Below, piece by piece: positions 6,656 to 62,408 of a stretch of 64,000 bases of DNA (position 1 is its first letter; each line of letters starts with the position of its first letter). Source of the DNA: Arenicola marina (taxonomy: Eukaryota > Annelida > Polychaeta > Arenicolidae); the NCBI GenBank assembly GCA_964019135.1, contig OZ025257.1, forward strand, positions 22,614,352 to 22,678,351, written 5' to 3'. The position numbers and the translations under genes are program-made. The notes under the pieces are model-generated. The model made no database searches. It saw nothing but the letters and a program-made list of their open reading frames with translations, and had not been told where the DNA came from.

Positions 6656-7143
6656 TGAAATCAAAGATTGTCTAGAGTAAGATCTCCAACTCGCGCGTCT
6701 GCCTATGGCCGAAATGTTACAAACGAGTTGTGGCGCCAACCTACCGGTGGGGATGCTATATTCCAGTCGGATAACTGATACGCGCTGGTACCTACCAGAC
6801 GAGCGAAAGACACGTAACAAACATGTTAAGCTTACCTTATCGATCGAGAATTAAGTTACCTCCATAATATTGACAAAAACATACATTCTACCCATTCTAG
6901 TGTCCTTATTGAAAGTTATCAAGTCTGAAGTCAACAGTGAAATGTAATCAAACGAACCCACGGCCGCGGGGCAGACATGTAACATTGTGAGTGTTCTGAC
7001 TTTAGTCCGAGGCTTAGATCTTACTTAGATCTAGTTAGAATCACAAATTAGAATCGAGAATCTCTTTAAAATCGTGACAAATGTGAGAAGGACCACCTTT
7101 TTCAAAAAAATAGCAAATTTTTCGACCAATAAAGGTAAAAAAA

Positions 7144-11987: not shown

Positions 11988-14900
11988 TCACGACTCACGT
12001 ACGTATTCGTCCAGCAGCAGTATTCGGCCCTCGACCTTGGGGGCGAGCGCTGAGGGCGCGTAATCCTCCTCCGCGGACTGGATGCTGTGGCGGCGCCGGA
12101 ACATGGCGCGCTTCACGGCCGGGCTGGAGCGGGTCTGCTGGGACTGGGGGGTTAGCAACACGCGCATCTCTGACTCCTGCATGCTCATCTGGCGCACCAG
12201 GTTCCTCCGTCTGCAAGGAGGGAAGGGGGGTCATACACTGGCGTGACTGAAATACGGTGGGGCGCGGGGGTGGGGGTCACACACTGACTGAGCGGGAGGA
12301 GTGGGGAGAGGAAGGGGCGGCGGGTGGGGGGGCGGATATGCCAGGGCAGGGCGGGACGCTTTAACCACTGCTGGTCATATCGCGTCAATGGGAGATTGGA
12401 GCCATGTCCCCGGGGGTAACCCTCTACGCTTTGCGAAGAAGGGCATGGAATCTTTATCCTGCGACCACACAGACATGGCCACAGCGGGGCGCGCACCACC
12501 AATCCACGTGCCGTTAGGCTCTCGGGTGGGCAGAGCGCTTAATGCCAACCCTCTAACCCACTGAGCTATCGGGTCGGCCCCGAATGTTGTACCTGGATAA
12601 GGGCACCAGACTCTGGTGATGCAGGAACTTGGGCGTCTTCTGTCCGCGGGCAATCTTCACCGAGTTGAAGTGGTTCTGGAGGATGATGCTCAGCCTGGGA
12701 CCCTCCTCCTCACCCACCTGGCAGGAAGATCACGGGGTATAATGAAATATTGAGGTAATGAATAATTATGATGGGTCATAAGGAAAAACTCTCAGTTATA
12801 ATGGGACGTAATAAGATATAATAAGTTATAATGGGATGTAATAGGATATAATGAGTTACAGTGGGATAAGTTGTAATGGGTTACAATGGGATATAATTAG
12901 TTATAATGGGGTCTGATGAGTAATATAATGGGATATAATTAGTTATAATGGGGTATGATGAGTTATAATGGGGTGTAATGGGATAAATTAGGGTATAATG
13001 TGTGATACTAGGATACAATGGTACATTCGGCCATCGAGAGATATCATGAAACATAATGTGACATGCAGGGACATAATATATAGGGACAGAATGGGGCGCA
13101 CAAGAACATATTAAGGATTACCACTATTCGGTATATTACGTGTCATACCGGGACATATTGGGAGAGTGGGTCATACTTTAATTGGATAATTTTCATTTAC
13201 AGAAGTCCCTGCGTTGATGGATGAACGGATTGGTTTTTTACGCCACCTTGGAGCACATATGTACTCAGCAGCCCCTGGAGTTATAGAGGTAGATTTGTGA
13301 CAGAGGTAGGGTTGTGATAGAGGTAGAGTCGTGATAGAGATATCGTTGTGATAGAGATATCGCTGTGATAGAGGTAGAGTTGTGATAGAGGTAGAGTTGT
13401 GACAGAGGTAGAGTTTTAATAGAGATATCGTTGTGATAGAGGTAGAGTCGTGATAAAGGTATAGTCGTGATAGAGGTAGAGTCGCGATAGAGGTAGAGTC
13501 GCGATAGAGGTAGAGTTGTGATAGATGTAGAGTCGTGATAGAGGTAGAGTCGTGACAGATGTAGAGTTGTGACAGAGGTAGAGTTGCGATAGAGGTAGGG
13601 CTGTGACAGAGACAGATAGAGGTAGGGCTGTGACAGAGACAGATAGAGGTAGGGCTGTGACAGAGACAGATAGAGGTAGAGTTTTGATAGAGGTAGGGCT
13701 GTGACAGAGACAGATAGAGGTAGGGCTGTGACAGAGACAGATAGAGGTAGAGTTGCGATAGAGGTAGGGCTGTGACAGAGACAGATAGAGGTAGGGCTGT
13801 GACAGAGACAGATAGAAGTAGGGCTGTGACAGAGACAGATAGAAGTAGAGTCGGATAGAGGTGGAGGAGGAGGACGCACAATGACTGGACACTGCTTGAA
13901 GACGTCGTATCCGTCTTTGCCGTTCGCCAGGTAATGCTTCGTGCACAGAGTGTAAGTCTGTAACGGGAAACAAGCATACATCAGCTTGCTACATACACAT
14001 TTCATCAAGGCGGAACACATGGCAAAGATGGGGTACCAGATTGCGCACCAGAAAAAACGTCACATTTTACCAGTTGCTCATAAGGTTGAGATGCAAGTCA
14101 ACAGGTCGTGAGTTCGAAACTTGATACCTGTATCTGGGGCAAGTTTCATCCAAATCCCATTGTCCCGGGAGCTTTTTGCAACCCATTGCAGCCTTCATGT
14201 ACACAAAAGCGGTCCACGGCACTAACATTATCATTTCACTTTGTTTGGCTTGAGGTAGTGGCCCTGCACTTTGACTAGAGTGCCTTAGACACTAACATTA
14301 TCATTTCACCTTGTCTGGCTTGAGGTAGTGGCCCTGCACTTTGACCAGACTGCTTTAGACCCTAACATTATCATTTCACCTTGTCTGGCTTGAGGTAGTG
14401 GCCCTGCACTTTGACCAGAGTGCCTTAGACACTAACATTATCATTTCACCTTGTCTGGCTTGAGGTAGTGGCCCTGCTCTTTGACCAGAGTGCCTTAGAC
14501 ACTAACATTATCATTTCACCTTGTTTGGCTTGAGGTAGTGGCCCTGCTCTTTGACCAGAGTGCCTTAGACACTAACATTATCATTTCACCTTGTTTGGCT
14601 TGAGGTAGTGGCCCTGCACTTTGACCAGACTACCTTAGACTCTAACATTATCATTTCACCTTGTTTGGCTTGAGGTGGTGGCCCTGCACTTTGACCAGAC
14701 TGCCTTAGACACTAACATTATCATTTCACCTTGTCTGGCTTGAGGTAGTGGCCCTGCACTTTGACCAGACTGCCTTAGACACTAACATTTTCATTATCAT
14801 TTCACCTTGTCTGGCTTGAGGTAGTGGCCCTGCACTTTGACCAGAGTGCCTTAGACACTAACATTATCATTTCACCTTGTTTGGCTTGAGGTAGTGGTCC

Positions 14901-17900
14901 TGCACTTTGACCAGACTGCCTTAGACAATAACATTTTCATTATCATTTCACCTTGTTTGGCTTGAGGTAGTGGCCCTGCACTTTGACCAGAGTGCCTTAG
15001 ACACTAACATTATCATTTCACCTTGTTTGGCTTGAGGTAGTGGCCCTGCACTTTGACCAGAGTGCCTTAGACACTAACATTATCATTTCACCTTGTTTGG
15101 CTTGAGGTAGTGGCCCTGCACTTTGACCAGACTACCTTAGACTCCAACATTATCATTTCACCTTGTTTGGCTTGAGGTAGTGGCCCTGCACTTTGACCAG
15201 ACTGCCTTAGACACTAACATTATCATTTCACCTTGTCTGGCTTGAGGTAGTGGCCCTGCACTTTGACCAGACTGCCTTAGACACTAACATTTTCATTATC
15301 ATTTCACCTTGTTTGGCTTGAGGTAGTGGCCCTGCTCTTTGACCAGAGTGCCTTAGACACTAACATTATCATTTCACCTTGTTTGGCTTGAGGTAGTGGC
15401 CCTGCACTTTGACCAGACTACCTTAGACTCCAACATTATCATTTCACCTTGTCTGGCTTGAGGTAGTGGTCCTGCACTTTGACCAGACTGCCTTAGACAC
15501 TAACATTTTCATTATCATTTCACCTTGTTTGGCTTGAGGTAGTGGCCCTGCACTTTGACCAGAGTGCCTTAGACACTAACATTATCATTTCACCTTGTTT
15601 GGCTTGAGGTAGTGGCCCTGCACTTTGACCAGAGTGCCTTAGACACTAACATTATCATTTCACCTTGTCTGGCTTGAGGTAGTGGCCTTGCACTTTGACC
15701 AGAGTGCCTTAGACACTAACATTATCATTTCACCTTGTCTGGCTTGAGGTAGTGGCCCTGCACTTTGACTAGACTGCCTTAGACACTAACATTATTTCAC
15801 CTTGTTTGGCTTGAGGTAGTGGCCCTGCACTTTGACCAGAGTGCCGTCGATGCGCTTGCCGGGCGGCTGGCTGGGGTCGAAGCCGAAGTTGACCCCGGCC
15901 ACCTGGGGGAATCGACCCTCCAACGCCGGGTACTGCGAGACGCCGTTCTCCAGGGCCTCCACCAGCTGAACGCCTGCGCACAACATCAACAAGCCAGTGT
16001 GACGTCATATCATGGCGATTTCGTGGGACAACAAGCAAGTGTGACGTTATTTTGACGATTGTGTGAGATAACAAGCAAGTGTGACGTCATCATGGCGATT
16101 TCGTCGGATAACCAGCCAGTGTGACGTCATATCATGGCGATTTCGTGGGACAACAAGCAAGTGTGACGTCATTTTGACGATTCTGTGAGATAACAAGCAA
16201 GTGTGACGTCATCATGGCGATTTCGTCGGATAACAAGCCAGTGTAACGTCATGCCAAGACGATTTGGTGGGATAACTATCAGGAAAAAAGTAAAAATGGT
16301 CCAAAAAAGCTATTATGCCAAAAAAAAACGTCAATTTGTTGTGGAGTCCTATCGCTATATTAGAAATCTGAAAATAAGCCATTTATGCAACATTTAAAAC
16401 TAAAGCTAAATGGACATTTTGGAATTAGACTGCAGTATTGACATTATTCACGTTACAAGCTATTGACCTACCCGTAATTTTGATCACCACGACAGGGTCT
16501 ACCATAGGTAGAATGGCCTTGAGATCTTTGACCTTGAAGTCCCCTTTAGGGTGAATCGTGTCTGACCGCAGAGTGCCCGAGTTGAGAAGGGCCACCTCAG
16601 CGTCTGTCGCCTCCAACATCACGTCAGTCACAAAGTTACCTGTACAAGCAATACACATGCCGTCAATAACTCCACGTTAGCATATACGGTAGGTAGCATG
16701 ATCTATTGTGGTTTTGACTTGATTGGAGTTTACTGGCACATCCAGCATGTAAGAAGTTATATCATGCCATCCCTATTTCAATGATGTTCCTTGCCGAAGA
16801 AAACTTGGCTTCAAACAAATATCAAATCTGGTGCATATAATAAGTACTATTTCTAAATCCCGTACCACTGTTGACACAGTTGGCAGATTCACCCGCCCAC
16901 TTTCCGCCCTATATAGGTTAGTCTCCTGGTTGCGAATTTTGGCGAACCTGCCTTCCAGATCCACCTCCATCTGTCCCAGCACCAACAAGGCGGATCCAGG
17001 AATAAAATAAATTGACACAATGGCAGATTCGCCCCCTCCCCATTTCCGCCATCTATCTGAATGTGTATAACAGCAGCAGACAGAGATGGGCCATTTCGCA
17101 CCTAGGTTAGTCTCCTGGTTGCGAATGTTGGCGAACCTGCCTTCCAGCTCCACCTCCATCTGTCCCAGCACCACCTCCATCCGAGCACCCATCACCTCTG
17201 GAAGCGATACAGGAGTATGTAGTCAACCACAGACAGTCACAGACAGCCACAGACAGCCACAGACAGCCGCAGACAGCCACAGACAGCCACTCAGCCACAG
17301 ACAGCCACAGACAGCCGCAGACAGCCACAGGCCCAAGAACGACCGGATCTTTCAGGTTAACGCAATATCAACTTCTCTTCCATTCTCCCAGGAATGTATC
17401 ATAAATATATTCTATCAGATCATGTTTAAGTTCCCCTAATATATTTTCGATGTAGTGCATATACACATTAGGGATGTGGGAGGTTGGACTGAAATAGTAC
17501 GGAATTCACTTATGAATACAAAGCGGAATTTCTACATTCAAGGAGCCATGGCTATACACAAGTGAGCCGTTTAAATATGCTCTTATTACTAGGATGGCTA
17601 TTCTTAGATTTCATGGCGAATCTCCATAATTTTCCCCTGCGATTTCCTTACTTTAAAATCTATTGTAAGGTTAAGGAATATACAGCGATTTATATACAGA
17701 TGGCCTCGACTGGATGAAGAAATTACCCTTTATGAAACCAACTGGCGACCGACATAATTGTAGGCACAAAGCTTTATTATTGCTGTGAATAATTCCCTTC
17801 CCATACAGCCCTCAAAGAATTCATGTGAGATTCGCTTCCGTTTAACACAATAGAACTCACTGCTGTATTCGGCCACCACGACCTTTATCCCGGCATCCTC

Positions 17901-21179: not shown

Positions 21180-22855
21180 AACAAATACTGCTGTAAGGAA
21201 CAAGTATAATAGCGTAAAATAAACTATAAACATCTACGTGAATACCGCATTTGATCGACTTCATTAGATTCTTAGATTTTCGTCACAAATCGGTCTTTAG
21301 CGTATGCATGTTTGTTTGTTTGCAATCTTACGCGCACGATTGCGGGCAAACTAAGGACCTATGTATATTATAGTTCACGCAGAAAATGCACAATGGTGAG
21401 GAACAGCGTTGAAAAGCTTTTGTTGGGCAAAGGTCAAAGGTCAAGGTCATAGCGATGTTTTGAAAATAATAAACAATAGAACGCGCATATCTCCGTTAAT
21501 ATTACTGTTAGACGTCGCGTAAGTTTCACAACATGCTACTTTTCAATGCGTACCTTTCGGGTATTATTTACTTTTTTTACGCATCATGCTCATTTTCGAG
21601 TAAAATGACGTTTTGTGTTTTTCGAAAAACCCATGAAATATCCTTGAAGATTTTTTCCGTAAATTTCGAACTATTTAGGCTATGGCTATCGCTAGTGGCT
21701 GCTCATAAAAATACGACTGAGACTGATTCCTGGGAAATGTGACATATTTCGGATGCGCCATATGAAGTCACGATGAAGACAGTTTTAGTACAAAGAAAAA
21801 AGCGTTACCAATCGGAATGTTTTTTATAAAAATGCCCGGTTGGCGTCATAATGTAGCGAATGTGATCCGCCGTAGGGCTGTATAATAAAAGCTATATGTT
21901 CCTATCTTGCTTCCGGTTCCAGGGACGAGCGCAAATCCCTATTTCACTTCCCACGTTAAAGCCGTTAACCTCTCATCCCAGGGAAAATGTATTGTGCCTT
22001 CGTCCACAAGTACCAGGATTTTTATTTCGGTTGAGACTGGTACCCATCAAATGACGTCACAGAATTTGTTTGTAATTTGGTCAGTCGTCAAAGATGGTGA
22101 GGTTTGCTGGTCGTAATTCGTAATATACGCATTTGCTTCTCACAGAACGCACAATTTTAATAATGGACTGAATATCTGAAAACGTTCGGGCAACGAAAAA
22201 AGAAACATACATTTTCACGTGGTCAACGTTATCGCAACAAACAATAACGTTGTGTCGACGTTGTCATGACGTTAACCTGTTTGCTGGTCAGACGCTCCCC
22301 CCCCCCCCCCCTTAACAACCCACCACTACACTTTAGCTTGCAGTTCCAAGGCTAAGTGGTGGAGAAGGCGGGCTTCTACCATAAGGACTACATCCACATC
22401 ATACCGGTGGCTACACAGGTACCAGTGATCGAGCATGGAACAGCATATCAACCAGAATACTGGTTGTATTCCCGACCTGGCAGGTGAAGATTTAGGCTGC
22501 GATCTCTCGTTATTCAGCTATATTTATGCAGTTACACTGAGCAAAAATCCGACAGGCATTGATCAATGCGAACAATAACTGCACGGTAGCATTCGTTTTT
22601 GGCCCAGACAATGTAACATCCACTTTTCGAAACATGACGTCGCAGAATCGTCGACATGCTTGCAAATAATAAAGTAAAATTATTTTTATCAACCCTTGTG
22701 GTTACTCAATTTGAGAGGACCGGTAATTTTCCAGGGGGGTAGGCCAATCTTAACACCACGCGCCCGACAGCGACATCTCAAGTTAATGCATGTCCCTGTA
22801 CTCCCGATTTTAAGTTGTGAGCCTAGATATATGGTGATAAACTCTTGTAATACTA
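21180..22855. other. intergenic between nucleotidase gene and retroelement fossils
   Basis: Presumed 5' region of the minus-strand nucleotidase gene. No conserved gene seen. A C run lies at about 22,288-22,310. Promoter elements could not be assigned. Confidence 0.5.
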
Positions 22856-22859
22856 CTTC

Positions 22860-23715
22860 CTGCAATCTATGGTGATGCCTATATACATAAGCTTCCCTCT
22901 TCGCTGGTATGTAGGGCACCCTGATGACCTTGTTTGTCGTGCAATCCCTCTAGCAAGCGTTCCCGAAGCACTGTGGGCAGTACCACCTGGTACAGCCTCC
23001 CTTGCCCCGGATTCTGCACCTTCCGCGCTAATACGTCCTTCAACAGTTAAGTCGGTCCCACTGACGCAGCAGTAGCTGTACCTCCCGCGATTCTTGTCCT
23101 TGCGACTTTGCTTGGCTTCAGCCCAGACAGTCACCACGGTCGGACCTTGCCAATGCCCGGATCGTCTGTTTGAAGCTTGGCCATCTCCGCTCTCGAGAGT
23201 CCCGGAAGACTTGCCTTTGCACCCGTGGCATGGCGTAGCTCAGCGGGAATTTGCGCAAACTGCAGCACGAATGCTAAGACATCTCCGACTTCCCACGGTC
23301 TCACTTTATAGCGAAAAGACGTGTCTTTTCGCGAAAAGAACTAATCTCGCGAAAAGACAGCCCAAATGCCAATTAACTCCGATTTGAAGCTCCCATGGTC
23401 GCCGTTCCTCTCTCGACAACGCGTCGCTATTGCCGTGCAGACGTCCTGGCTTGTAGCGGATGTCGAATTCGAAACGGGCCGGGCTGAAGCCCAGCGCTGT
23501 TCCACGGCCGGAAATTTCCTCATGAATAGGCATCAGGTTGGCGAGATGATTGTTGTCCGTGAGCACGATGAACCTGCCGTGCATGCGGTACTCGCGGAAC
23601 TTATCCACAGCCTGCCCACTGCAGTCTATTGCCATGGCGATGGCATCTAGACTGTGGTGTTTGCAAACAACACATGACCCAGAGAGGAAAGTTGCATGCG
23701 GAAGAAGCAGCACTT
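22860..23715 (-). mobile_element. Ty3/Gypsy-type LTR retroelement, pol fossil
   Basis: The minus strand carries RNase H-type sequence (FREYRMHGRFIVLTDNNHLA and YKPGRLHGNSDALSR) followed, toward lower coordinates, by remains of the integrase N-terminal zinc-finger region (ELLEGLHDKQGHQG-like in a different frame). Only this internal part is present; no LTRs, gag or protease were seen. It is a broken, old fragment with a few breaks. Confidence 0.8.
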
Positions 23716-23822
23716 GTCCGAACTTATCGTTATAGCTTGCTAAATGATGACAAGAGCAATATACCTCTGTAGTTAGTCATGTCTGTCATTGAACCTTTTT
23801 TATGAAGCGGGAGAATTAGAGC

Positions 23823-24020
23823 TTAACACCAGCTATCTGGAAATTTTCCATTTTGTAATATCAAGTTAAAAAGACAAACTAGGTAAGGCGTAAGGTGATA
23901 CGCTACTGCTTTAAAGATTTCATTAGATAAACTGTCATATCCTGTAGCCTTCCCATTCATACCTTTATTATGTTTATACACTAGAGGACTTAATTCATAT
24001 GCATTAAATGGTTTACTTAA
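23823..24020 (-). mobile_element. non-LTR retrotransposon (LINE) reverse transcriptase fragment
   Basis: The minus-strand reading gives GKATGYDSLSNEIFKAV then LTPYLVCLFNLILQNGKFPD, the N-terminal finger region of jockey/CR1/RTE-like reverse transcriptases, in which an N-x-KA-x-G-x-D motif precedes the first palm motif. About 60 residues remain, ending at a stop. A short GGATAT microsatellite (24,027-24,050) adjoins. 5'-truncated or decayed; orientation is minus. Confidence 0.75.
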
Positions 24021-24059
24021 ATTATCCATATCCATATCCATATCCATGCCAAGCAATAC

Positions 24060-25018
24060 AGTTGTTGTCATGGCTGGATGGAAAGGTTTTTACCTCTGCC
24101 TGGAAGTGCAGATTAGTTTGACCAATAAAGTAATTTAATGAGGCTTGAAAATAGACTTTCCAACTCTTAGCCAAAATATTGCAACAGTTCACTTTCCTTA
24201 TATCAACAAGTTTTGCTGTAGTGTGCATGTAAACTGACATTTTTTCGCTCCTTAGATATTTCAACTGTGGTGACGAAGTTATTATCAACTCTGTGTACAT
24301 TTCAATATGCTGTTACAGCTCCCAGTCAAGCCAATTGCGTCACGTTTGCCACTCATAGCTCTCTTGCAGTATCCATCGCACCATTTTTATTGTGAACAAT
24401 TAAAAGATCATTTCATTGCTGTCTGCAGCCAATGGAATCCTGTCATGAAGAAATATGTATTAACTTATTTATGTCATAAAAAAGAATAAAATTAAAGTAT
24501 AGTTATCAGACCAGTGATTGCTCACATAGCAAAAGATGGTAAAATAATTAATATGCAGATTGCTTGGAATCATATAACATGGATGTCAAGGTAGCTGTCA
24601 CATGAAGATAGCCCTGTAACAGCCTACCAGCTGCAGGGCAGACCGGAGGGCTATGGAGTACCAATCTCAGCCTTTCATCTGAAAGCAGGGGGTCGTGGCA
24701 AAGTTTGAAGGCCCTAAGTGCTACTTGCTAATTCATCAGGCTACAAAGTATCCCCCAAAACAAACCTTTTGCCACTTACCACCATTTTTTTACACTTGCT
24801 CATTCCAGGTCTCCACAAAAATAAAGTTGGTTCCTAATCTCACGGCAACGAGTACTCAGCTACTTGTATGGCTATAGTGACACAATAAGAGCACCATCTG
24901 TAGTGAGTTACCATTCAGTGGAACTAGCCTTGCATTTGAAGAGTCCGGGAATGAGCAATATGTTTTAAAACACTGGTCCGCCCTGTAGCCGTTGGGCTAT
25001 GTATAGGGCTAATCATGA
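24060..25018. other. no gene seen
   Basis: Short open frames at 24,022-24,489 and 24,695-24,877 have no recognisable family. I see no structured repeat. Confidence 0.45.
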
Positions 25019-30600: not shown

Positions 30601-33600
30601 CTCAGCAGTATTTCAACTATTCCAAGGTTGTGCGTTATTAATGTTCACATAGTTTGCCCAACACAATTCCAAAGAGTTGTCGTACCGGTATGTTAACTTC
30701 TAGAAAAGGACAACTACCTTTCAGTGATTACCATGGAGATAAAACGCTACTAATGAAGAAATACAAATAATTTAATTTAAACTGAGTGTAAGTGATACAA
30801 TTTGATACAAGAAACACCATTACGACGTGCTTTCACTTGATCGCCAGCCGAGCCAAAAAAATCGAGATACGGTGTAAACTGAGGTCCCGAAATGTCAACG
30901 GCCGACCCCGCATTTTCTAGAATAAAGCTCTAAAATAACCCCTGCCCCAGTACACGACTCGCCAAGGCTTGCCCTCTGACATCAGTCTCCCTACCTCCTT
31001 CCCCCGCCCCCTTATCCACTCCCGCCGTCCCAGCTTACCGTCTGGCATGACCTTGCCCACGCTACAGGCGCAGCCACAGCTCTGGAAGGTCTTGCAGTCT
31101 CCGGCGGGCACCTTCCACATCCAGACACTGCCATCTGTTGTGCCCGCCAGCAGCACTGGGGCCGCCTGGTGCCACTCCAGCCACTGTGAACAATATCAAC
31201 ATAACGCCGTTAAAGTCACCCACCATGCGGGGGTTACCAGCCACTGGTAACAACATCGACACACCGCCGTTAAAGTCACCCACCATGCGGATGTTACCAG
31301 CCACTGGTAACAATATCGACACACCGCCGTTAAAGTCACCCACCATGCGGGGGTTACCAGCCACTGGTAACAACATCGACACACCGCCGTTAAAGTCACC
31401 CACCATGCGGGGGTTACCAGCCACTGGTAACAACATCGACACACCGCCGTTAAAGTCACCCACCATGCGGGGGTTACCAGCCACTGGTAACAACATCGAC
31501 ACACCGCCGTTAAAGTCACCCACCATGCGGATGTTACCAGCCACTGGTAACAACATCGACACACCGCCGTTAAAGTCACCCACCATGCGGGGGTTACCAG
31601 CCACTGGTAACAACATCGCCACACCGCCGTTAAAGTCACCCACCATGCGGGGGTTACCAGCCACTGGTAACAACATCGACACACCGCCGTTAAAGTCACC
31701 CACCATGCGGGGGTTACCAGCCACTGGTAACAACATCGACACACCGCCGTTAAAGTCACCCACCATGCGGGGGTTACCAGCCACTGGTAACAACATCGAC
31801 ACACCGCTGTTAAAGTCACCCACCATGCTGGGGTTACCAGCCACTGGTAACAACATCGACACACCGCCGTTAAAGTCACCCACCATGCGGGGGTTACCAG
31901 CCACTGGTAACAACATCGACACACCGCCGTTAAAGTCACCCACCATGCGGGGGTTACCAGCCACTGGTAACAACATCGACACACCGCCGTTAAAGTCACC
32001 CACCATGCGGATGTTACCAGCCACTGGTAACAACATCGACACACCGCCGTTAAAGTCACCCACCATGCGGGGGTTACCAGCCACTGGTAACAACATCGCC
32101 ACACCGCCGTTAAAGTCACCCACCATGCGGGGGTTACCAGCCACTGGTAACAACATCGACACACCGCCGTTAAAGTCACCCACCATGCGGGGGTTACCAG
32201 CCACTGGTAACAACATCGACACACCGCCGTTAAAGTCACCCACCATGCGGGGGTTACCAGCCACTGGTAACAACATCGACACACCGCTGTTAAAGTCACC
32301 CACCATGCTGGGGTTACCAGCCACTGGTAACAACATCGACACACCGCCGTTAAAGTCACCCACCATGCGGGGGTTACCAGCCACTGGTAACAACATCGAC
32401 ACACCGCCGTTAAAGTCACCCACCATGCGGGGGTTACCAGCCACTGGTAACAACATCGACACACCGCCGTTAAAGTCACCCACCATGCGGGGGTTACCAG
32501 CCACTGGTAACAACATCGACACACCGCCGTTAAAGTCACCCACCATGCGGGTGTTACAGGTCAGTCCCCCCCCCCCCCGCCCCCCACCCTGCTATCCGCC
32601 GGTCGTGAGCTCATGTAGCGGAAGATTGAGGGATCAAAGGTAAGATGCTAAAATCTCACGATTCTAGTAACTATTCAGTTGAAGTTTGGTGGGTAGGTTG
32701 GTTTGTAGCTCATATCGCGACAATGAGAAAGGTCAAATCAGAGAGAAGATGCATTTCCGGAACTGACCGCCTACTCTTTGCGAAGAAAGAATCATTATCC
32801 TGCACTAACATCTGTACAGGTGGGATTTGAACAACGCACCGGCCGCCTGGGCTAACCTAGTAGAGTACACTTGACAATAGCCGAACGCGTTACCAGAACT
32901 ACTAGCCACCCCTATTCAGTTGGTAAAAGCATCAATCGATATAGGAGAGCGTGTACCGTTTTGCCTCCGCCGTTCACTACCTACGTTTAAAGATGAGTGG
33001 TAACAATTACGACTCCAGAGAGAACAGCGGCGTACCTCGAGGTCCCCTATCTGGAAGCTCCAGACCTCTTTCTTGGCGGAAAGGCTCCACACTTTGATGT
33101 CGCCGCTCATGTCGCCCGTGGCAACCATGCTGCCGTCATGGCTGAAACCCACGCACGTGACCGAATCCGTGTGGCCTGCAACGACAAGGGAATGGTGATA
33201 TGGCAAATACGACAAGGATATAATGATATGGTAAACACAACAAGGCAATAATGATATGGTAAACACGACAAGGGAATAATGATTTCGTAAACACGACAAG
33301 GAAATAATAATTTGGTAAACACGACAAGGGAATAATGATTTGGTAAACACGACAAGGGAATAATGATTTGGTAAACACGACAAGGGAATATTGATTTGGT
33401 AAACACGGCAAGGAAATAATGATATGGTAAACACGACAAGGCAATTATGATATGGTAAACACGACAAGGGAATAATGATTTCGAAAACACGACAAGGAAA
33501 TAATAATTTGGTAAACACGACAAGGGAATAATGATTTGGTAAACACGACAAGGAAATAATGATTTGGTAAACACGACAAGGGAATGATAACACCGGTAGG

Positions 33601-54967: not shown

Positions 54968-55800
54968 GGAAGGTGTTGTGGCCGAGCTGGTAAGACGATA
55001 GACCTCGGGATCTACTGGCCAACTCCCGGGATTGGCTCCCGGATGTCCTGGGTCGGCTGCGGGATTGGCTCCGGGATGTCCTGGGTCGGCTGCGGGATTG
55101 GCTCCGGGATGTCCTGGGTCGGTTGCGACATTGGCTCCGGGATGTCCTGGGTCGGCTGCGACATTGGCTCCGGGATGTCCTGGGTCGGCTGCGACATTGA
55201 CTCCGGGATGTCCTGGGTCGGCTGCGACATTGGCTCCGGGATGTCCTGGGTCGGCTGCGGGATTGGCTCCGGGATGTCCTGGGTCGGCTGCGACATTTAC
55301 TCCGGGATGTCCTGGGTCGGCTGCGACATTGGCTCCGGGATGTCCTGGGTCGGCTGCGGGATTGGCTCCGGGATGTCCTGGGTCGGCTGCGGGATTGGCT
55401 CTGGGATCTACAGGGTCGGGCCCAGGACTGGCTCCGGGATTTGGAGGGTCGGCTCCGGGATTGGCTCCGGGATGTCCAGGGTCGGCCCCGAGATTGCCTC
55501 CTGGATCTACAGGGTTGGGCACTGGGATTGGCTCCGGGATCTACAGGGTTGGGCCCTAGGATTGGCTCCGGGACCTACAGGCTTAACCCCGGGATTGGCT
55601 CCAGGACACACAGGCTTAACCCCGGGATTGGCTCCGGGACCTACAGGCTTAACCCCGGGATTGGCTCCGGGACCTACAGGCTCAACCCCGGGATTGGCTC
55701 CGGGACCTACAGGGTTAGCCACAGGATTAGCTCCAGGACCTAAAGGGTTAGCCCCAGGATTTGCTCCGGGATCTACATGGGTCACCCGGCACTGGCTCCG
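54968..55800 (+). repeat. 33-bp minisatellite, two subtypes, after a tRNA-like sequence
   Basis: Starts with GTGTTGTGGCCGAGCTGGTA (tRNA A-box-like), then about 13 units of GGCTCCGGGATGTCCTGGGT+CGGCTGCGGGATT (55,020-55,420), a mixed zone with CTACAGGGTCGGGC, and about 8 units of GGCTCCGGGACCTACAGGCT+TAACCCCGGGATT (55,560-55,790). Frames stay open on both strands because 33 is a multiple of 3. Confidence 0.92.
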
Positions 55801-55804
55801 GGTT

Positions 55805-58063: not shown

Positions 58064-58480
58064 TCGAGGCCTGTAGTCGTTAGCGCACTATACCACTGAT
58101 TAATATGTCCTGGGTTCGTGGGTTTAGCTCTCGTATCTGGGGTATATTTCATCCAGCCAGCGCCCGGGAGGTTCCTTGTCCCGGTTTAGCTCTCGTATCT
58201 GGGGTATGTTTCGTCCAGCCAGCGCCCCGGGAGGTTCCTTGTCCCCGGTTTAGCCCTCGTATCTGGGGTATGTTTCATCCAGCCAGCGCCCGGGAGGTTC
58301 CTTGTCCCCGGTTTAGCTCTCGTATCTGGGGTATGTTTCATCCAGCCAGCGCCCGGGAGGTGCCTTGTCCCGGTTTAGCTCTCGTATCTGGGGTATGTTT
58401 CGTCCAGCCAGCGCCCGGAGGTTCCTTGTCCCGGTTTAGCTCTCGTATGCACACAACCGGCCTAAAAAGCTAAAAAGCAC
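58064..58480 (+). repeat. SINE head plus 60-bp tandem copies of its core
   Basis: A tRNA-like head (GAGGCCTGTAGTCGTTAGCG, B box GGGTTCGTGGG) leads into six copies of a unit of about 61 bp (GCTCTCGTATCTGGGGTATG, CATCCAGCCAGCGCCCGGGA). The core is the TATCTGGGG segment of the SINEs at 14,070 and 47,565, so part of a SINE has become a minisatellite. Confidence 0.8.
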
Positions 58481-59405
58481 TTGGCTCCTCTATAAGTTGA
58501 CCCTTCCCATTGTCGCGGTATGACCTATGGAGGTCAAAGCTTCTTGCTAATCGTATCATACTAATCATATCATCTCAACAGAGCAGGGAGGGGTGGCCTT
58601 GTTTCATCTCTTCCGTAGAGTCACGAGATTGTCTTATACAGGTATATCGCCTCTAGCCGCAACTACTTCACCCCCTGCCCCCCTCCCCCCCCCCCCCCCT
58701 CCCCCGCCGTCCCCCCGGTCCCCTCCTCAGACACGTGTCTCGTTTGCCCACGAGATCGCCCCGGGATCTAGGTAGATCTGATCGCAGGTCTGTAAGGTCA
58801 ATGAGTCCATTTCTGGTATCGGTCACGTGGCGGGTCACGTGCCAACCTCGGGTGCATACGATTTTTTTTGGCGTTAACCAGTTCTAGGTTAATTGCATTA
58901 ACGAGTTGAAGGTACAAATGCTGCCGGATTAACTGATTAACTGAAAAACTGGCCGGTATTTAAAACATTGTGAGAAACGGTCTACATCAAGTAGAATCAG
59001 AACGTGGTGTCATGACACGAAGCACGCAGTGTTGGTGTTTTAGTCGGAAGAGCAAAAGATTTTAGGCTACATGCTCTTATCGTTTAACTAATGAGGCTAT
59101 AAGGACTGGTATTGTTGGGTGTGAGTTTCCTGTACTCCAGGGCCACTCTCACCGCTTTAGTCTTATACAACTACTCCGCTACTACTGGTCCCGCTTGTAT
59201 TCCTTGTGGTGAAAACCCGCATCCCGCAAGGTGAATGCGTGATATCGGTTGTGGGTTCGAACCCCCCGCCAGTGGCACATGTGTGACCTAAATCGATGCA
59301 CTGTGTGAAACTGTGTGTAACCTCAATCGGGATACCACGCCCTTCAACAGCGGTAACTTTGTTAACATCGTCCATTGAGGACATGACAGGTTAACACCAG
59401 ACCCC
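58109..59405 (+). repeat. 1.28-kb duplicated block, copy 1
   Basis: Near-identical to 61,127-62,408, including the 61-bp repeats, a C-rich tract, ACGTGTCTCGTTTGCCC, and a second tRNA-like SINE segment (GGTTGTGGGTTCGAACCCC). Copy 1 has small indels relative to copy 2. The copies flank the 96-bp array and the N gap. Confidence 0.9.
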
Positions 59406-60926
59406 CCATCGCCACCAGAAGTTACCCCCGGGCCGCTCTGAGGGGACAGTCACCCCTGGCTCAGAGAAAACAGCCCCTTCCCCAGACGGACAACCCAGAC
59501 CCCCATCGCCACCAGAAGCTACCCCGGGCCGCTCTGAGTGAGGGGACAGTCAGCCCTGGCTTAGAGAAAACAGCCCCTCCCCCAGACGGACAACCCAGAC
59601 CCCCATCGCCACCGGTAGCCGCCCCTGGCCGCTCTGAGGAGACAGTCAGCACTGGCGCAGAGAAAACAGCCCCTCCCCCGGACGGACAACCCAGACGCCC
59701 ATCGCCACCAGAAGTTACCCCGGGCCGCTCTGAGGGGACAGTCAGCTCTGGCTCAGAGGAAACAGCCCCTCCCCCAGACGGACAACCCAGACCCCCATCG
59801 CCACCAGAAGTTACCCCGGGCCGCTCTGTGGTGACGGTCAGCACTGGCTCAGAGAAAACAGCCCCTCCCCCAGACGGACAACCCAGACCCCCATCGCCAC
59901 CAGAAGTTACCCCGGGCCGCTCTGAGGGGACAGTCAGCCCTGACCGAGAGAGAGCCGCCCCTCCCCCAGACGGACAACCCAGCCCCCCATCGCCACCAGA
60001 AGCTACCCCGGGCCGCTCTGAGGGGACAGTCACCCCTGGCTCAGAGGAAACAGCCCCTCCCCCAGACGGACAACCCAGACCCCCATCGCCACCAGAAGCA
60101 ACCCCGGGCCGCTCTGAGGGGACAGTCACCCCTGGCTCAGAGGAAACAGCCCCTCCCGCAGACGGACAACCCAGACCCCCATCGCCACCAGAAGCTACCC
60201 CGGGCCGCTCTGAGGGGACAGTCACCCCTGGCTCAGAGGAAACAGCCCCTCCCGCAGACGGACAACCCAGACCCCCATCGCCACCAGAAGTTACCCCGGG
60301 CCGCTCTGAGGGGACGGTCAGCACTGACCGAGAGAGAGCCGCCCCTCCCCCAGACGGACAACCCAGCCCCCCATCGCCACCAGAAGCTACCCCGGGCCGC
60401 TCTGAGGGGACAGTCACCCCTGGCTCAGAGGAAACAGCCCCTCCCCCAGACGGACAACCCAGACCCCCATCGCCACCAGAAGTTACCCCGGGCCGCTCTG
60501 AGGGGACAGTCAGCCCTGACCGAGAGAGCCGCCCCTCCCCCAGACGGACAACCCAGCCCCCCATCGCCACCAGAAGCTGCCCCGGGCCGCTCTGAGGGGA
60601 CAGTCACCCCTGGCTCAGAGGAAACAGCCCCTCCCCCAGACGGACAACCCAGACCCCCATCGCCACCAGAAGCTACCCCGGGCCGCTCTGAGGGGACAGT
60701 CACCCCTGGCTCAGAGGAAACAGCCCCTCCCGCAGACGGACAACCCAGACCCCCATCGCCACCAGAAGTTACCCCGGGCCGCTCTGTGGTGACGGTCAGC
60801 TCTGGCTCAGAGGAAACAGCCCCTCCCCCAGACGGACAACCCAGACCCCCATCGCCACCAGAAGTTACCCCGGGCCGCTCTGAGGGGACAGTCACCCCTG
60901 GCTCAGAGGAAACAGCCCCTCCCGCA
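59395..60926 (+). repeat. 96-bp GC-rich minisatellite, about 16 copies, cut by the gap
   Basis: Unit of 96 bp with CCCCCATCGCCACCAGAAGT, GGGCCGCTCTGAGGGGACAG and CTCCCCCAGACGGACAACCC. A second subtype has GACCGAGAGAGAGCC. Frames of 255 aa (plus, PPPDGQPRPPSPPE) and 369 aa (minus) remain open because 96 is a multiple of 3, but some units have indels that shift frame. Confidence 0.93.
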
Positions 60927-61126: not shown

Positions 61127-62408
61127 CCTGGGTTCGTGGGTTTAGCTCTCGTATCTGGGGTATATTTCATCCAGCCAGCGCCCGGGAGGTTCCTTGTCCG
61201 GTTTAGCTCTCGTATCTGGGGTATGTTTCATCCAGCCAGCGCCCGGGAGGTTCCTTGTCCCCGGTTTAGCTCTCGTATCTGGGGTATGTTTCATCCAGCC
61301 AGCGCCCGGGAGGTGCCTTGTCCCGGTTTAGCCCTCGTATCTGGGGTATGTTTCATCCAGCCAGCGCCCGGGAGGTGCCTTGTCCCGGTTTAGCTCTCGT
61401 ATCTGGGGTATGTTTCGTCCAGCCAGCGCCCGGGAGGTTCCTTGTCCCGGTTTAGCTCTCGTATGCACACAACCGGCCTAAAAAGCTAAAAAGCACTTGG
61501 CTCCTCTATAAGTTGACCCTTCCCATTGTCGCGGTATGACCTATGGAGGTCAAAGCTTCTTGCTAATCGTATCATACTAATCATATCATCTCAACAGAGC
61601 AGGGAGGGGTGGCCTTGTTTCATCTCTTCCGTAGAGTCACGAGATTGTCTTATACAGGTATATCGCCTCTAGCCGCAACTACTTCACCCCCTGCCCCCTC
61701 CCCCCCCCCCCCTCCCCCGCCGTCCCCCCGGTCCCCTCCTCAGACACGTGTCTCGTTTGCCCACGAGATCGCCCCGGGATCTAGGTAGATCTGATCGCAG
61801 GTCTGTAAGGTCAATGAGTCCATTTCTGGTATCGGTCACGTGGCGGGTCACGTGCCAACCTCGGGTGCATACGATTTTTTTGGCGTTAACCAGTTCTAGG
61901 TTAATTGCATTAACGAGTTGAAGGTACAAATGCTGCCGGATTAACTGATTAACTGAAAAACTGACCGGTATTTAAAACATTGTGAGAAACGGTCTACATC
62001 AAGTAGAATCAGTACGTGGTATCATGACACGAAGCACGCAGTGTTGGTGTTTTAGTCGGAAGAGCAAAAGAGTTCAGGCTACATGCTCTTATCGTTTAAC
62101 TAATGAGGCTATAAGGACTGGTATTGTTGGGTGTGAGTTTCCTGTACTCCAGGGCCACTCTCACCGCTTAGTCTTATACAACTACTCCGCTACTACTGGT
62201 CCGCTTGTATTCCTCGTGGTGAAAACCCGCATCCCGCAAGGTGAATGCGTGTATCGGTTGTGGGTTCGAACCCCCGTCAGTGCACATGTGTGACCTAAAT
62301 CGATGCACTGTGTGAAACTGTGTGTAACCTCAATCGGGATACCACACCCTTCAACAGCGGTAACTTTGTTAACATCGTCCGTTGAGGACATGACAGGTTA
62401 ACACCAGA
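61127..62408 (+). repeat. 1.28-kb duplicated block, copy 2
   Basis: Matches 58,109-59,405. After it the sequence runs into a C-rich tract and then the exon at 62,474 rather than into the 96-bp array. Confidence 0.9.

Follow-up and report, generated by a model that had tools for sequence, protein, structure and literature searches.

Background

Minisatellites whose repeat unit spans an exon-intron boundary, so that a splice site is copied along with it, are described in amphioxus under the name of 'mirage' minisatellites. They are reported for Adh3 and the globin genes BflGb6 and BflGb9 (PMC3087553), to which TnC and PGBD5 were added (PMC3902484), with units of 10-72 bp in Adh3, 150-160 bp in BflGb6, 157 bp in BflGb9, and 60 and 108 bp in PGBD5. 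Both sources suggest that regular splicing is apparently undisturbed by these arrays (PMC3087553, PMC3902484). Here, an array of tandem repeats at the end of exon 9 of a 5'-nucleotidase gene is analysed in the annelid Arenicola marina. It lies in a stretch of 64,000 nucleotides of contig OZ025257.1 (assembly GCA_964019135.1, positions 22,614,352 to 22,678,351), which is called the window below and provides the coordinates of this gene. The array is real and belongs to the known class of mirages rather than to a new kind. An earlier note, made from the sequence alone, had likened it to the amphioxus cases, and this comparison is apt as to kind (PMC3087553, PMC3902484).

Related arrangements are reported in other genomes. 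The human CBS gene contains a 31-bp variable number tandem repeat (VNTR), c.1444_1467+7(16_21), with 16-21 copies, and according to this notation its unit consists of 24 exon and 7 intron bases (PMC2630376). At the exon-intron boundaries of human segmental duplications, variable internal tandem repeats are described, which are tied to novel introns and alternative transcripts (PMC2812944). Earthworm metallothionein genes are reported to carry intronic minisatellites and copies of exon 4 (PMC12783039). Among the matches listed for open-licence PMC titles and abstract openings, searched for mirages and for minisatellites in combination with annelids or exon boundaries, there was no report of splice-site-spanning arrays in annelids.

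Results

Structure of the array

Tandem Repeats Finder (TRF) placed an array with a period of 70 bp, 22.9 copies and a score of 2728 at 14220-15845, entering exon 9 by 45 bp. Cutting it at every CAA[G/A]GTGAAA resulted in 23 units, with one step of 67 bp followed by steps of 70 or 76 bp, and the last unit was trimmed to 70 bp by rule. Because of this regular spacing of 67-76 bp, the motif search missed no unit. The template at the true exon edge is followed by 22 intronic copies (Table 1), among which the 76-bp units (nos. 5, 8, 13 and 15) each contain an inserted GAAAAT. The earlier note had given the unit as 45 bp of exon plus 25 bp of intron; this describes the copies, whose unit straddles the exon-intron boundary in exactly this way, but at the real edge 22 intron bases precede the next unit. 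The span of 14226-15973 named there needs correction at both ends, as the repeat-like part of the last unit stops at about 14220, placing the low end of the array at 14215-14220, and position 15973 is where exon 9 begins. In total, 1586 of the 1843 bp of intron 9 consist of the array.

On the minus strand, the G of GT in the intronic copies runs from 15733 down to 14239. GTGAAA is found in 22 of 22 copies, although this motif was also used to find the units, and the preceding CAAG is intact in 21 of them. The expectation of about 22 extra donors, each reading CAAG/GTGAAA, was therefore right in number and holds for all copies except the last of the array, which reads CAAA/GTGAAA. In their exonic 45 bp, the copies are 93.3-100% identical to the edge of exon 9, with exact identity in 4 of 22, and show a mean identity of 95% among themselves. 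As the best match to these 45 bp in 200 mononucleotide shuffles of intron 9 was 25/45, a similarity to 15,801-15,845 by chance alone, which the earlier note had named as grounds for giving up its claim, can be dismissed. Several units have variants in common. DNA searches with two units and exon 9 as queries returned neither array units nor exon 9 from elsewhere in the genome among the matches listed.

The gene and its splicing

The exons of the nucleotidase gene were joined according to the GT-AG rule. The product of exons 4-11 covers positions 2-158 of the 158 positions of the Pfam family 5_nucleotid_C (PF02872) with an E-value of 4.5e-42, and it matches 36 distinct PDB sequences (E <= 0.001, best E 5.5e-36), including CD73 and bacterial 5'-nucleotidase. 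The alignments to PF02872, CD73 and bacterial 5'-nucleotidase are continuous over LKPNK/TYTLCTKHYLANGKDGY, the junction of exon 9 and exon 10 via donor 1. With this join the domain is unbroken, which shows the real exon 9 to be intact and the outermost part of the array. It is also the best evidence that donor 1 is, presumably, the productive donor. The segment encoded by exon 10 is located at the F500 loop of CD73, which holds the adenine.

Reading in frame past donor 1 leads to KPNKVK and a stop two codons after the donor. With donor 2, the exon would be 240 nt long and the distance from the stop to the junction 58 nt; the corresponding values are 310 nt and 128 nt for donor 3, and 1734 nt and 1552 nt for donor 23. 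None of the unit steps (67, 70 and 76 bp) is divisible by three, and the earlier note had argued from the frame shift that 70-bp blocks would cause. However, the in-frame stop right after donor 1 comes first, and the frame effect of the unit steps is therefore irrelevant. That the first donor must be favoured, as the note had concluded, is supported; all later donors retain the stop. Judged from the reading frame, any later donor should truncate the enzyme and expose the mRNA to nonsense-mediated decay, and the splicing machinery would appear to pass over donors 2-23. Within the exonic part, the copies differ at 4 of 15 third codon positions and at 6 of 30 first or second ones (Fisher p = 0.71); no coding constraint is thus visible in them.

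Apart from exons 7 and 9, ten further exons of the gene were compared by blastn, and none of them had a copy. Two further groups of minisatellites are located close by: a 40-bp array near the acceptor of exon 9, which ends about 14 bp before this exon (15988-16276), and arrays with periods of 17 to 98 bp directly after exon 10 (13283-13862). Units of the main array had no match in either of these regions.

Table 1. Features of the nucleotidase locus (window coordinates) and splice-site mirages at other genes; a slash marks the exon edge
Feature	Position or locus	Strand	Details	Grade
Exon 9 of the 5'-nucleotidase gene	15801..15973	-	173 bp; acceptor gtgcgcag before; end CCAAACAAG/gtgaaataa	
Real donor (donor 1)	15795..15803	-	AAG/GTGAAA; G of GT at 15800	
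Intron 9	13958..15800	-	1843 bp	
Exon 10	13880..13957	-	TYTLCTKHYLANGKDGYDVFKQCPVI; conserved partner of donor 1	
Exon 8	16472..16640	-	upstream neighbour of exon 9	
Copy of exon 7 3' end in intron 7	16914..16984	-	71 bp, 97% identity, donor not preserved (blastn)	
Template unit 1	15779..15845	-	67 bp; last 45 bp of exon 9 and first 22 bp of intron 9 (gtgaaataatgttagtgtctaa); true exon edge	
Units 2-23, intronic copies of exon end and donor	14215..15778	-	22 copies; 18 x 70 bp, 4 x 76 bp	
Globin, acceptor	L055		61-bp units; exact motif T[AT]CAG/TTTCTTCAAG gives 30 acceptors, the real one included	clear
Globin, donor	L067		CAG/GTAAGG; 48 bp x 15.6	clear
ABC transporter, donor	L071		CAG/GTGAGT; from 1673; 60 bp x 25.4 to locus end	clear
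ABC transporter, donor	L078		CAG/GTGAGG; several unequal copies	clear
ABC transporter, donor	L083		AAG/GTAACC; 92 bp x 4.6	clear
Myosin, donor	L096		AAG/GTAGGC; 62 bp x 5.7 to locus end; 49 exon and 13 intron bases	clear
Myosin, donor	L103		CAG/GTACGT; 37 bp x 6.6	clear
ABC transporter, donor	L081			likely
Nucleotidase paralogue, acceptor	L002		two copies	likely
Array barely reaching into exon	L006			borderline

Mirages at other genes

The sample outside the nucleotidase gene of the window comprised 83 exon-scale protein matches, namely 4 nucleotidase, 11 ADH, 29 globin, 20 ABC transporter and 19 myosin loci. The myosin loci are the first 19 of 77 listed matches, while for nucleotidase, ADH, globin and ABC all returned matches were used, the window's own two apart. 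These 83 loci are not independent genes; their exon edges are approximated by profile matches and their splice sites are those implied by protein match and GT/AG. Arrays with a period below 15 bp were excluded before counting. On this basis, splice-site mirages are clear at 7 of the 83 loci, a number that increases to 9 with likely and to 10 with borderline cases. Six of the seven clear mirages affect the donor side, and the remaining one (L055) the acceptor side.

Some of these loci have features of their own. The globin exon at L055 and L088 (G000:C4, ~10948431-10950600), with its acceptor-side array, has more copies than the array in the window. The exon at L067 has an in-frame TGA just before the repeated donor, for which a pseudogene, a variant or an error are possible reasons. 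At L071, the array is in frame and free of stops in the stretch shown, with an open frame of 1066 aa, and its inner donors would therefore add blocks of 20 residues instead of a stop. In gene orientation, the 37-bp unit of L103 (from ~480) combines a C tract that includes CACAG with 12 exon-like bases and the donor GTACGT. In most units, this could be a microexon of 12 nt.

A search of the matches against their flanks with blastn detected a copy for 11 of the 83 loci, and in nine of them, including L044 and L006, the best copies touch the edge of the match. The remaining two, L069 and L070, were rejected as mirages, as the matches are between two ATP-binding domains that belong to a single open frame. 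L044 was rejected as an exon-edge copy because it is the 3' terminal part of a gene, stop and downstream sequence included. L091, where an array begins at the exon end, has no copied donor and was not counted as a mirage. Adh is among the published mirage genes, and the class III ADH search was intended as a positive control; none of its 11 loci (L027-L033 and L035 on one C4 stretch; L034, L036 and L037) has an array overlapping the match.

Frequency of exon-edge arrays

An automated rule found arrays straddling the match edge at 8 of the 83 loci, compared to 1.96 expected under a model in which each array starts as one uniformly placed unit (Poisson P ~0.001); this list of eight includes the borderline L006 and the likely L002 and L081 and omits L078 and L083. 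For the 64 loci with long flanks, 7 overlapping arrays were found versus 1.9 expected, and arrays with a period of at least 15 bp cover 9-18% of these flanks, depending on the distance bin. Uniform placement as a full account was set aside because of the difference between expected and automatically detected arrays. We take arrays at exon edges to be no rarer than expected under neutral placement, and possibly about three times more common. Throughout the genome, three CAGGTRAGT donors in a row at gaps of 30-60 bp occur at 6721 places, versus 1617 for the reversed pattern. These figures count places, which overlap within arrays, instead of arrays, and are no more than a hint. We are slightly inclined to regard mirages as pervasive in this genome, with several per cent of splice sites having tandem copies of themselves and of the exon end, above random placement and mostly at donors.

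Genome and window context

The assembly comprises 867 Mb in 762 contigs. Its mitochondrial contig shows the order nad3-nad2-cox1-cox2-atp8-cox3, with Tyr and Gly tRNA-like sequences, recognised by eye, ahead of cox3. This order and these tRNAs before cox3 correspond to the annelid ground pattern; in amphioxus mitochondria, atp6 lies between atp8 and cox3. Amphioxus as the source was rejected because of this gene order and the size of the genome. Pfam supports nad3, cox2 and cox3. For nad2, the match is to PF00361, the general family of proton antiporters, and for atp8 it is weak and under the cut-off (E 0.0046). In cox1, the codons fit ATA as Met, AAA as Lys, AGA as Ser and TGA as Trp, with no AGG in 447 matched codons. 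An echinoderm or hemichordate mitochondrial code was rejected, as ATA and AAA are found where the cox1 protein has Met and Lys, respectively.

Several other repeats were observed in the window. The long arrays at 31177-32557, 59397-60923 and 55025-55802 have periods of 60, 96 and 33 bp, which are multiples of three, and are possibly coding repeats. Separate arrays about 3 kb apart, at 58121-58448 and 61139-61464, have a 62- to 63-bp unit in common. On the minus strand of 22853-24089, open frames by eye resemble broken pieces of a retrotransposon reverse transcriptase and RNase H.

Discussion

The array in intron 9 is very probably a donor-side mirage minisatellite that is nearly neutral, was seeded by a duplication over the donor, and is tolerated through the use of the exon-proximal donor. 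A tandem duplication across the boundary of exon 9 and intron 9 would have provided the intron with a second exon end and donor at its start. Unequal exchange or replication slippage may then have expanded and homogenised it to 22 copies; the structure, the near-identity of the units and their common variants are observed, and it is the mechanism that is proposed here. The outermost copy would have remained exon. Splicing would join donor 1 to exon 10, probably since this donor gives the shortest exon (173 nt versus 240-1734 nt) and is transcribed first, and the copies of the array would be removed along with the intron. A rare mRNA using a later donor would contain the in-frame stop at least 58 nt before the junction and is expected to be cleared by nonsense-mediated decay. 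As the copies would leave with the intron and rare mis-spliced mRNA would decay, the array would be close to neutral, one of many such arrays in the genome. The same architecture at L055, L067, L071, L078, L083, L096 and L103 supports this explanation, as do the lack of visible coding constraint in the copies, the unbroken domain obtained with donor 1, and the exon lengths and stop distances.

Some observations weigh against it. GTGAAA is common to all 23 donors and CAAG to 22 of the 23, and the choice of donor 1 must therefore rest on context. In addition, each unit contains an AG (GTGCAG) with a preceding pyrimidine share of 0.53, the same as that of the exon 9 acceptor, which makes small exons from pieces of the unit compatible with the sequence. 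Finally, the excess of exon-edge arrays over uniform placement means that 'random and neutral' may be incomplete.

The same stop that would remove mis-spliced mRNA could also serve regulation, if a share of the transcripts took internal donors and decayed, and the amount of nucleotidase was tuned in this way. All later donors give KPNKVK and a stop at least 58 nt before the junction, the donor of the copies is identical to the real one, and the latter looks weak without the G at +5 of the consensus. Such a poison array is nevertheless improbable: the copies show no coding constraint, exon lengths would reach 1734 nt, and it could not be a general explanation because the 60-bp units of the ABC gene L071 add no stop in the stretch read. 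An assembly artefact, with collapsed or inflated repeats, is the least probable of the alternatives and can practically be discounted. Although tandem arrays are hard to assemble, the units contain distinct and irregularly placed variants, the final copy is mutated, and similar arrays are present at other genes.

Another possibility is that the array is an intermediate of intron or exon gain, with its units furnishing splice sites for new introns or small exons, as in the model published for amphioxus globins (PMC3087553). GTGCAG, with its acceptor-like pyrimidine share, and the donor of each unit would bound a piece of 24 nt, and the unit of L103 contains a C-rich tract with CACAG as well as the donor GTACGT. 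In intron gain by AG/GT duplication, the acceptor comes from the repeat. However, the acceptor of intron 9 is not repeat-derived, as two units match nothing in 14214-13880, exon 10 included (E 0.1). No copy of exon 10 was detected in the region of the gene, and the pyrimidine share before its acceptor, 0.80, exceeds the 0.40-0.53 of any AG of the unit. Gain of an intron or exon is slightly less probable than a poison array, if not quite as remote as an artefact, and the nearly neutral mirage remains the preferred explanation.

Where several to about 30 nearly identical splice sites line up beside the real one, it can be tested directly how the site nearest the exon wins, and this at genes whose correct splicing is legible from conserved protein domains. 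If mirages are indeed pervasive, this genome is a natural experiment on the choice of the spliceosome among near-identical sites. If they are found outside cephalochordates and are common, they are not peculiar to lancelets; minisatellite birth would be expected to produce them wherever a genome is rich in minisatellites, and they could be raw material for new introns and isoforms. Such arrays would also mislead gene predictors.

Compared to the known systems, the nucleotidase array differs from the earthworm metallothionein repeats in that it spans a splice site, which is not described for the latter in the part of the source available to us (PMC12783039). With the repeats of human segmental duplications, it shares minisatellite changes at exon boundaries, but those repeats are linked to novel introns and alternative transcripts (PMC2812944). 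The human CBS VNTR is similar in that its unit consists of an exon end and the donor and is repeated about 20 times, with 24 + 7 bp instead of 45 + 25 bp. The closest relatives are the amphioxus mirages, where, as far as they are described, either exon end can likewise be hit (PMC3087553, PMC3902484). Unlike them, the array reported here consists of 22 copies of 70 bp in an annelid genome with further cases at other genes, and its interest is raised by these further cases in the annelid, which involve several genes and affect donor as well as acceptor ends of exons.

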